Positions 2,056 through 3,899 of a stretch of DNA of 64,000 nucleotides are shown here, piece by piece. Source of the stretch: Gemmatimonadota bacterium (lineage in GTDB: Bacteria; Gemmatimonadota; Gemmatimonadetes; Longimicrobiales; Gaopeijiaceae); the NCBI GenBank assembly GCA_002724575.1, contig PBPC01000031.1, forward strand, positions 7,313 through 71,312, given 5' to 3'. The notes beneath the pieces were generated by a model. The model was given only the letters and a program-made list of their open reading frames with translations. It ran no database searches and was not told the DNA's origin. The translations under genes and the position numbers were made by a program. The first letter of the stretch is position 1. Every line of letters starts with the position of its first letter.

Positions 2056-2736
2056 ATGGCGCGAGCGCACTTTATTCCCCTTTCTACATACGAGGAACTT
2101 CCTCCGGAAGAGATGCGTCGGGAAGCTGAGGCGTTCCTCGCTAAGATGAGACGTCGCCGCACAGTGAGGGAATTTTCTGACCGACCTGTGCCAAAGGACG
2201 TAATCGAAAACTGTATCCTAGCTGCTGGGACTGCCCCCAATGGTGCGAATCGTCAGCCTTGGCGTTTCGTCATGATAGGCGACCCGGAACTCAAGTCCCG
2301 TATTCGGGAAGCAGCTGAAGAGGAGGAAAGGCAGTTCTACCAAGAGAAAGCACCCAAAGAGTGGCTCGATGCCCTAGAACACCTCGGTACGGATGAAAAC
2401 AAGCCGTTCCTTGAGGATGCACCGTGGCTCATTGTGATATTCGCAGAGAGTTACGAGGTGCTTTCTGATGGTACTAAGGCAAAGAATTACTATGTGACAG
2501 AATCAGTTGGTATCGCCACGGGGATGCTTATCACTGCTCTTCACTATGCTGGTCTCGTTACGCTAACACACACACCTTCGCCGATGAAATTCCTTAATCA
2601 CTTACTCGATAGGCCGGATAACGAGCGTGCATTCCTAGTGCTTGTCTGTGGATATCCAGAGGAAGGTGCCACGGTCCCCGAGATCACGAAAAAGTCGATA
2701 GAGGATATCGCTATTATTGCGGATCAATCTAAATAG
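2056..2736 (+). CDS. nitroreductase-family flavoprotein, iodotyrosine deiodinase-like
   Basis: [70 protein letters not shown]. Confidence 0.85.
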
Positions 2737-2745
2737 GTATCACAG

Positions 2746-3114
2746 ATGAGTACTCCAACACCTGACGAGTGGGTCACTATCTACGAGAAACCCACCTGAA
2801 CAACATGTCGGAAGCTCGTGAAGCTTCTTGAGGAAGAAGGTGTCAGCTTCAGGCGAGTGAACTATTTCTTGGAACCACTCAGAAAAGAGGACTTGGTCGC
2901 TTTACTCAGGAAGGGGGGATTGGTCCCGCGCGACCTACTCCGGACCCGAGATAAGTCCTATAGGGAAATGGGTCTAGCAGACCCCAACGTAGATGACGAT
3001 ACAGTTCTGGATGCGTTAGTAGCTGAACCAGGGCTACTCCAACGTCCGATTGTTGAGCGGTCAGGGCGTGTTGTAATTGGTCGTCCACTCGAGAACGTAC
3101 GGAAACTCTTCTAG
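2746..3114 (+). CDS. ArsC/Spx-like redox protein, candidate selenoprotein with in-frame TGA (Sec) at 2797-2799
   Basis: ATG 2746 reads MSTPTPDEWVTIYEKPT-TGA-TTCRKLVKLLEEEGVSFRRVNYFLEPL...LLQRPIVERSGRVVIGRPLENVRKLF. Frame is continuous through the TGA with the ORF-track 98 aa ORF (2818..3114). Family fold and the LQRPIV motif are intact. Confidence 0.75.
2810..2828 (+). promoter_or_regulatory. bacterial SECIS-like hairpin downstream of TGA
   Basis: GGAAGCT-CGTGA-AGCTTCT: 7-bp stem (one G-U), 5-nt loop with G at second position; loop starts 18 nt after the TGA. Confidence 0.55.
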
Positions 3115-3155: not shown

Positions 3156-3899
3156 CTAGCGCCAGGTGACTTCCATCGCAAAGAAGTGATCAAAGACCTC
3201 CCGCGTCGGATGATTTCTCTCATTAGATTCAGGGCTTCTGATATAGAAGTCTAGTTGCATCTGAGCCGGATTCACTGCTCCTGCATCAGTTCCTGCACCT
3301 GTCCGGACAACGAGTGTTTCACGATCTCTAATTCCTTGTGTGATCATGAAATGGATTTGGTGTTCATCGTAGAGCATCGCACCATCAAGTGTCGCGCTTC
3401 CCCAACCCCATCCGGCTAGGTATAGAAGACTCTTGGGCCAGTTTGCATCACCACAGCCGGCATTGCCGTGTTCATATAGGAACGCTGCGATACCCCCATC
3501 CTGGCATGGTGAGAATTCCTCAAATCGATCAAGCTCAACCACATAGTGCCCCTCTGGAAGGTCAAGTTCAGCTCGGAATGTGCCAGTATTGGCTTGCTCA
3601 TCAACGTCTAGCTCGATCGTGCCGCCTACTGCTTGAATACCACGGCCATCATCACCCATATGATCCCAGGGGGAAGTATCGTCTAGCGTCCCCACGTGAT
3701 AAACCTGGCTCGCACTCACAATGAAACGACCGTCATAGTTCGTGTGTTGCTCGGGTGTATAGATCCCCATCTCCGTACCTGGCTGGTACCGCGCGCCTGG
3801 CTGGAGTTCACTTGATCCGTCAGGCCCACCAATGCACCCGGTCATCGTTCCTATGCTTGCGAACATTAGGGCTAGCACGCGTTGCTTTTTAAATTTCAA
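3156..3899 (-). CDS. hypothetical lipoprotein
   Basis: Lipobox-like signal LMFASIGTMTGCIGG; TTG start overlaps the TGA of the upstream aminotransferase gene. Confidence 0.6.
   Translation of the reverse strand: MKFKKQRVLALMFASIGTMTGCIGGPDGSSELQPGARYQPGTEMGIYTPEQHTNYDGRFIVSASQVYHVGTLDDTSPWDHMGDDGRGIQAVGGTIELDVDEQANTGTFRAELDLPEGHYVVELDRFEEFSPCQDGGIAAFLYEHGNAGCGDANWPKSLLYLAGWGWGSATLDGAMLYDEHQIHFMITQGIRDRETLVVRTGAGTDAGAVNPAQMQLDFYIRSPESNERNHPTREVFDHFFAMEVTWR

Follow-up and report, generated by a model that had tools for sequence, protein, structure and literature searches.

Does the in-frame TGA at positions 2797-2799 end a short, broken gene, or is it read as selenocysteine (Sec) in an ArsC/Spx-like protein? 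This is the question raised by the locus described here, which lies in a 64,000-nucleotide stretch of Gemmatimonadota DNA (hereafter, the window). The most probable answer, to which a probability of about 0.96 is given, is that the gene encodes a selenoprotein of the ArsC/Spx family, Sec being inserted at UGA 2797 via SelB and a hairpin at 2810-2828. Sequence evidence supports both the recoding (its signal and machinery) and the protein itself (fold, redox motif and arginines).

A reading frame with one internal TGA

Direct translation confirmed that a single frame runs from ATG 2746 to the terminal TAG with the TGA as its sole internal stop (Table 1). The 122-residue product reads MSTPTPDEWVTIYEKPT-U-TTCRKLVKLLEEEG...GRPLENVRKLF; the part that follows Sec begins TTCRKLVKLL and carries LLQRPIV further on. 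The Shine-Dalgarno-like AGG in front of the gene overlaps the stop codon (TAG, 2734-2736) of the preceding nitroreductase-family gene. In the mechanical ORF list, as the original prediction had pointed out, the gene begins only at GTG 2818, which yields a piece of 98 residues from which strand 1 and the redox motif are lost. The locus is a clean example of gene callers removing an active site.

Table 1. Positions of the Sec-ArsC gene, its functional sites and adjoining elements in the window
Feature	Position	Strand	Remarks
Nitroreductase-family gene (PF00881)	2056..2736	+	Stops 9 nt before the Sec-ArsC start
AGG, putative weak Shine-Dalgarno-like triplet	2735..2737	+	8 nt upstream of the ATG; direct reading
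Sec-ArsC gene, ArsC/Spx-like selenoprotein (predicted), 122 aa	2746..3114	+	One in-frame TGA; stop TAG 3112-3114
TGA, predicted to be decoded as Sec, residue 18	2797..2799	+	Same column as catalytic Cys12 of E. coli R773 ArsC
TGT, Cys21	2806..2808	+	Second residue of UxxC; putative resolving role
Predicted bacterial SECIS hairpin	2810..2828	+	Stem 2811-2816/2822-2827 (GAAGCT/AGCTTC), G-U pair 2810-2828, loop CGTGA 2817-2821
GTG, start in the mechanical ORF call	2818..2820	+	False start within the SECIS loop
Arg66 (ArsC Arg60)	2941..2943	+	Ungapped alignment to 1jzw/1i9d; invariant in 37-row alignment
Arg100 (ArsC Arg94)	3043..3045	+	Ungapped alignment to 1jzw/1i9d; invariant in 37-row alignment
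Arg113 (ArsC Arg107)	3082..3084	+	Ungapped alignment to 1jzw/1i9d; invariant in 37-row alignment

TGA had been claimed to serve as a normal stop elsewhere in this DNA, so that any recoding would be local, and this holds: 21 of the 37 window ORFs of at least 250 residues, a set that includes some non-gene ORFs, end in TGA, 9 in TAA and 7 in TAG. As TGA is the commonest stop of these long ORFs, the code is not reassigned. Were the TGA decoded as Cys or Trp, whether through near-cognate readthrough or because of a local reassignment, the frame would stay just as open. Such decoding is nevertheless very unlikely, given this stop usage and the presence in the genome of a dedicated Sec apparatus; Trp is additionally disfavored because homologues have the redox Cys, not Trp, in this column.

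The source genome is a Gemmatimonadota MAG (2.4 Mb in 100 contigs, with 89% completeness; its closest named relatives are MAGs of the Gemmatimonadales), and the search for selA, selB, selC and selD proposed with the original prediction found all four in it. SelA scores 539.8 bits, SelB 312 bits across its first 356 positions within a single frame of 636 residues, and tRNA-Sec 68.7 bits, with the anticodon TCA assigned by ARAGORN. SelD (L079, contig C75; 380.7 bits) is itself a selenoprotein, whose frame requires decoding of a TGA in ...SHGAGUACKLG... (the GUAC site). SelA was also detected in all 11 genomes that carry the Sec form found in the window, while one Cys-form genome (G074) is without it. 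Across this Gemmatimonadota family, SelA occurs in 92 of 121 genomes, and Sec use is therefore the rule there; further genes with an internal TGA are probably miscalled in this family.

Conservation of the TGA and of the predicted SECIS hairpin

A family-wide search detected TGA at the same codon throughout the genus (five genomes, the four relatives being 89-95% identical to the window protein) and in six further genomes of the family at 58-62% identity. Four other genomes of the family have an unbroken frame with TGT or TGC in this column, the position of the redox Cys of ArsC/Spx proteins. Because the same TGA recurs in 11 separately assembled genomes and other close relatives have Cys, chance and sequencing error are both rejected.

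The mechanical ORF calls, which show just the 98-residue piece, would also suit a decaying pseudogene in which a Cys codon has become TGA and translation either stops at residue 17 or begins anew from GTG 2818. This explanation is refuted by the comparison of the 11 genomes and is left with almost no probability: the TGA, together with the frame before and after it, is conserved down to 58% identity and no further disabling change occurs, the restart would drop strand 1 and the redox motif, and synonymous sites are most constrained directly after the TGA.

In a wider sample of the phylum, two relatives from the same order, members of a sister family (L082 and L084), are Cys forms. Sec forms with a UxxS motif were found in another family (L083, L085 and L086), and a second clade of UxxC Sec forms, approximately 40% identical to the window protein, extends over four families (L028-L030, L087-L092 and L095). 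An acidobacterial MAG (L048, Pyrinomonadaceae) likewise has a Sec form. The UxxS sequences (PTUSAS, PTUPAS) branch inside the supported clade of the window's UxxC form, which indicates that UxxS and UxxC interchange. In a maximum-likelihood tree with 50 rows, 5 changes of the Sec/Cys label are required, compared with 16.7 for shuffled labels, and supported branches alone demand at least 2 of them. Such natural Sec/Cys pairs, at 50-60% identity within one bacterial family, should be useful for learning what Sec buys the ArsC fold.

With regard to the recoding signal, it has been reported that bacterial SECIS elements have a loop of 3-9 nt, a stem of 4-16 bp, a G among the first two nucleotides of the loop and a spacing of 16-37 nt (PMC13188914). 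The candidate hairpin agrees with these rules, having a 5-nt loop (CGUGA) with G at position 2 followed by U, a stem of 6-7 bp and a loop that lies 17 nt after the TGA; the check for a SECIS element thus returned a hairpin with a loop G at the right distance. Folding of the single sequence is less telling. The 51-nt stretch, for which the figure holds rather than for the hairpin alone, folds at -8.7 kcal/mol (published limit -7.5), no better than shuffled sequences (z +0.58). Against synonymous shuffles, the hairpin gives P of approximately 0.11 (0.06-0.18 per sequence in the window's clade), and no Rfam model matched the window at gathering thresholds.

The case for the SECIS element rests on how synonymous conservation differs between Sec and Cys copies, and this comparison we regard as decisive over single-sequence folding. 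Codon conservation was expressed as the share of same-residue sequence pairs that use the same codon. Among Sec copies it reaches 0.85 at codons 4-10 after the TGA (the hairpin), against 0.36 at codons 1-3 and 0.53 at codons 18-33, whereas Cys relatives show no excess at codons 4-10 (0.46); in a subset with one sequence per lineage, the values at codons 4-10 are 0.83 (Sec) and 0.45 (Cys). The second Sec clade behaves in the same way, with 0.86 at codons 4-10 and approximately 0.5 elsewhere. Its hairpin is CAAGGC-GGTC-GCCTTG, with one two-sided change, CAGGGC/GCCCTG, in L030. The SECIS region of this clade (CGCAAGGCGGTCGCCTTG) is frozen across families, almost letter for letter.

Fold, active site and possible substrates

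The assignment to the ArsC/Spx group was right, with the refinement that the protein stands nearer to ArsC than to Spx. It scores 67.3 bits against PF03960 (ArsC; gathering cut-off 24) and 100.7 bits against TIGR00014 (arsC, the glutaredoxin-type arsenate reductases), just below the cut-off of 106.05, while its sister in the neighboring genus (L019) attains 106.9 bits. Against the two Spx models it scores 54.9 bits (cut-off 123) and 63.8 bits (cut-off 75.05). An AlphaFold2 model built on 37 aligned rows (mean pLDDT 90.5, pTM 0.80) has the predicted fold of ArsC, and 3rdw is given as its best PDB match. The TMq values in Foldseek were 0.87 for 3rdw, 0.90 for 3f0i and 0.85 for E. coli ArsC, all of them arsenate reductases, and 0.81 for Spx (1z3e).

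Sec18, Arg66, Arg100 and Arg113 align without gaps to Cys12, Arg60, Arg94 and Arg107 of E. coli R773 ArsC, and all four are invariant in the 37-row alignment (with Sec written as C); the equivalents of the three arsenate-binding arginines are hence kept. On the other hand, His8, Asn9 and Ser15 of ArsC, which were reported to be necessary for arsenic resistance (PMC5593903), are replaced by Glu14, Lys15 and Cys21. With Cys where ArsC has Ser15, the protein gains a UxxC pair similar to the Spx CxxC switch.

The window protein is most likely a selenol-thiol oxidoreductase of the UxxC type, judging from its sequence. Briefly, SelB on the hairpin would bring Sec-tRNA-Sec to UGA 2797, and translation would yield a protein of 122 residues with a thioredoxin fold, in which Sec18-Thr-Thr-Cys21 stands at the start of helix 1. 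In the predicted chemistry that we infer, the Sec18 selenol would be the attacking nucleophile on an oxidized substrate, perhaps a disulfide, perhaps an oxyanion that Arg66, Arg100 and Arg113 hold in place. Cys21 would then form a selenenyl-sulfide, with thioredoxin or glutaredoxin as its likely reductant.

If the recoding is real, the product could also be a Spx-type redox switch that binds the alpha subunit of RNA polymerase, since UxxC sits where Spx has its CxxC switch and the structure matches Spx (TMq of approximately 0.81). This seems improbable, as the Spx models score far below their cut-offs and the ArsC-type GRP arginine is retained.

A true arsenate reductase serving arsenic detoxification deserves more weight, and the TIGR00014 scores of the protein and its sister, together with the invariant arginines, speak in its favor. 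Several observations count against it besides the loss of His8, Asn9 and Ser15. Searches of the window's own genome (89% complete) for ACR3 and ArsB detected neither. ACR3 was found in none of the 11 Sec-form genomes (this one and 10 relatives) but in three of the four Cys-form genomes, a contrast in which kinship and genome size are confounders. ArsB-type matches appeared in only two of the 11 Sec-form genomes, at 60-72 bits. The pattern of ACR3 does not favor arsenic detoxification. Moreover, the neighbors of Sec-ArsC are the nitroreductase gene and a gene on the reverse strand, not ars genes. Genuine arsenate detoxification consequently appears rather unlikely, and arsenate as the natural substrate is doubtful; another substrate, a small molecule or a protein thiol/oxyanion, is the more probable choice. 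The absence of ACR3 with the Sec form makes the 'arsenate reductase' label of the family testable.

The upstream gene scores 85.9 bits against PF00881 and is BluB/FbiB-like, under the cut-offs. The order nitroreductase then Sec-ArsC is kept in eight genomes of two genera (the five of the genus and three of the neighboring one), and the two genes may possibly form an operon. Downstream, a lipoprotein-like gene with a lipobox-like start (TMTGCIGG; 3156-3899, minus strand) converges on Sec-ArsC, which it adjoins in the genus only. One tentative reading, for which less than even odds would be given, is a non-arsenic branch of ArsC-fold selenoproteins that joins the oxyanion arginines of ArsC to a Spx-like UxxC and has a new substrate or a role in redox signaling. 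In this reading, Gemmatimonadota without the ACR3 arsenite exporter retain the branch, partly beside a nitroreductase.

Relation to known selenoproteins and ArsC-fold proteins

ArsC-type selenoproteins were reported in 2005 from the Sargasso Sea (14 sequences; PMC1088965) and in 2008 from the Global Ocean Sampling data, in two groups, UxxS and UxxC (PMC2398784); two reviews, from 2022 and 2026, list them (PMC9312934, PMC13188914). As both motif types have been described since 2005-2008, the kind of gene found in the window is already known. However, the main text of these two reviews of prokaryotic selenoproteins contains no occurrence of Gemmatimonadota, and the present gene is a well-supported selenoprotein in that phylum.

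Among the described groups, arsenate reductase 2 (cd03032; 42 marine sequences; PMC2398784) is like the window protein in its ArsC/Spx-type domain and UxxC motif, a likeness drawn from its description. Arsenate reductase 1 (pfam03960/TIGR00014; PMC2398784, PMC13188914) belongs to the same domain family and also has Sec in the redox motif, although its second motif residue is Ser (UxxS) where the window protein has Cys. ArsC_rel_Se_1 (NF041106) is likewise ArsC-related with UxxC, but the window protein is not a member, scoring 28.6 against a cut-off of 85. Two relatives in the window's family that are members (L036 and L037, 117 and 106 bits) branch far from it. In these two, the TGA is accompanied by a 7-bp hairpin with the loop GTT, which beats all 1000 synonymous shuffles.

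Among related proteins with Cys at the nucleophile position, E. coli R773 ArsC (1i9d, 1jzw) shares with the window protein the fold, the three arginines and the position of the nucleophile, and differs from it in having Cys12 for Sec and His8, Asn9 and Ser15 for Glu, Lys and Cys. Bacillus Spx (1z3e, 7f75) has the same fold and a CxxC-like motif at the same place; compared with it, the window protein carries Sec for the first Cys, scores weakly against Spx models and possesses the GRP arginine typical of ArsC.
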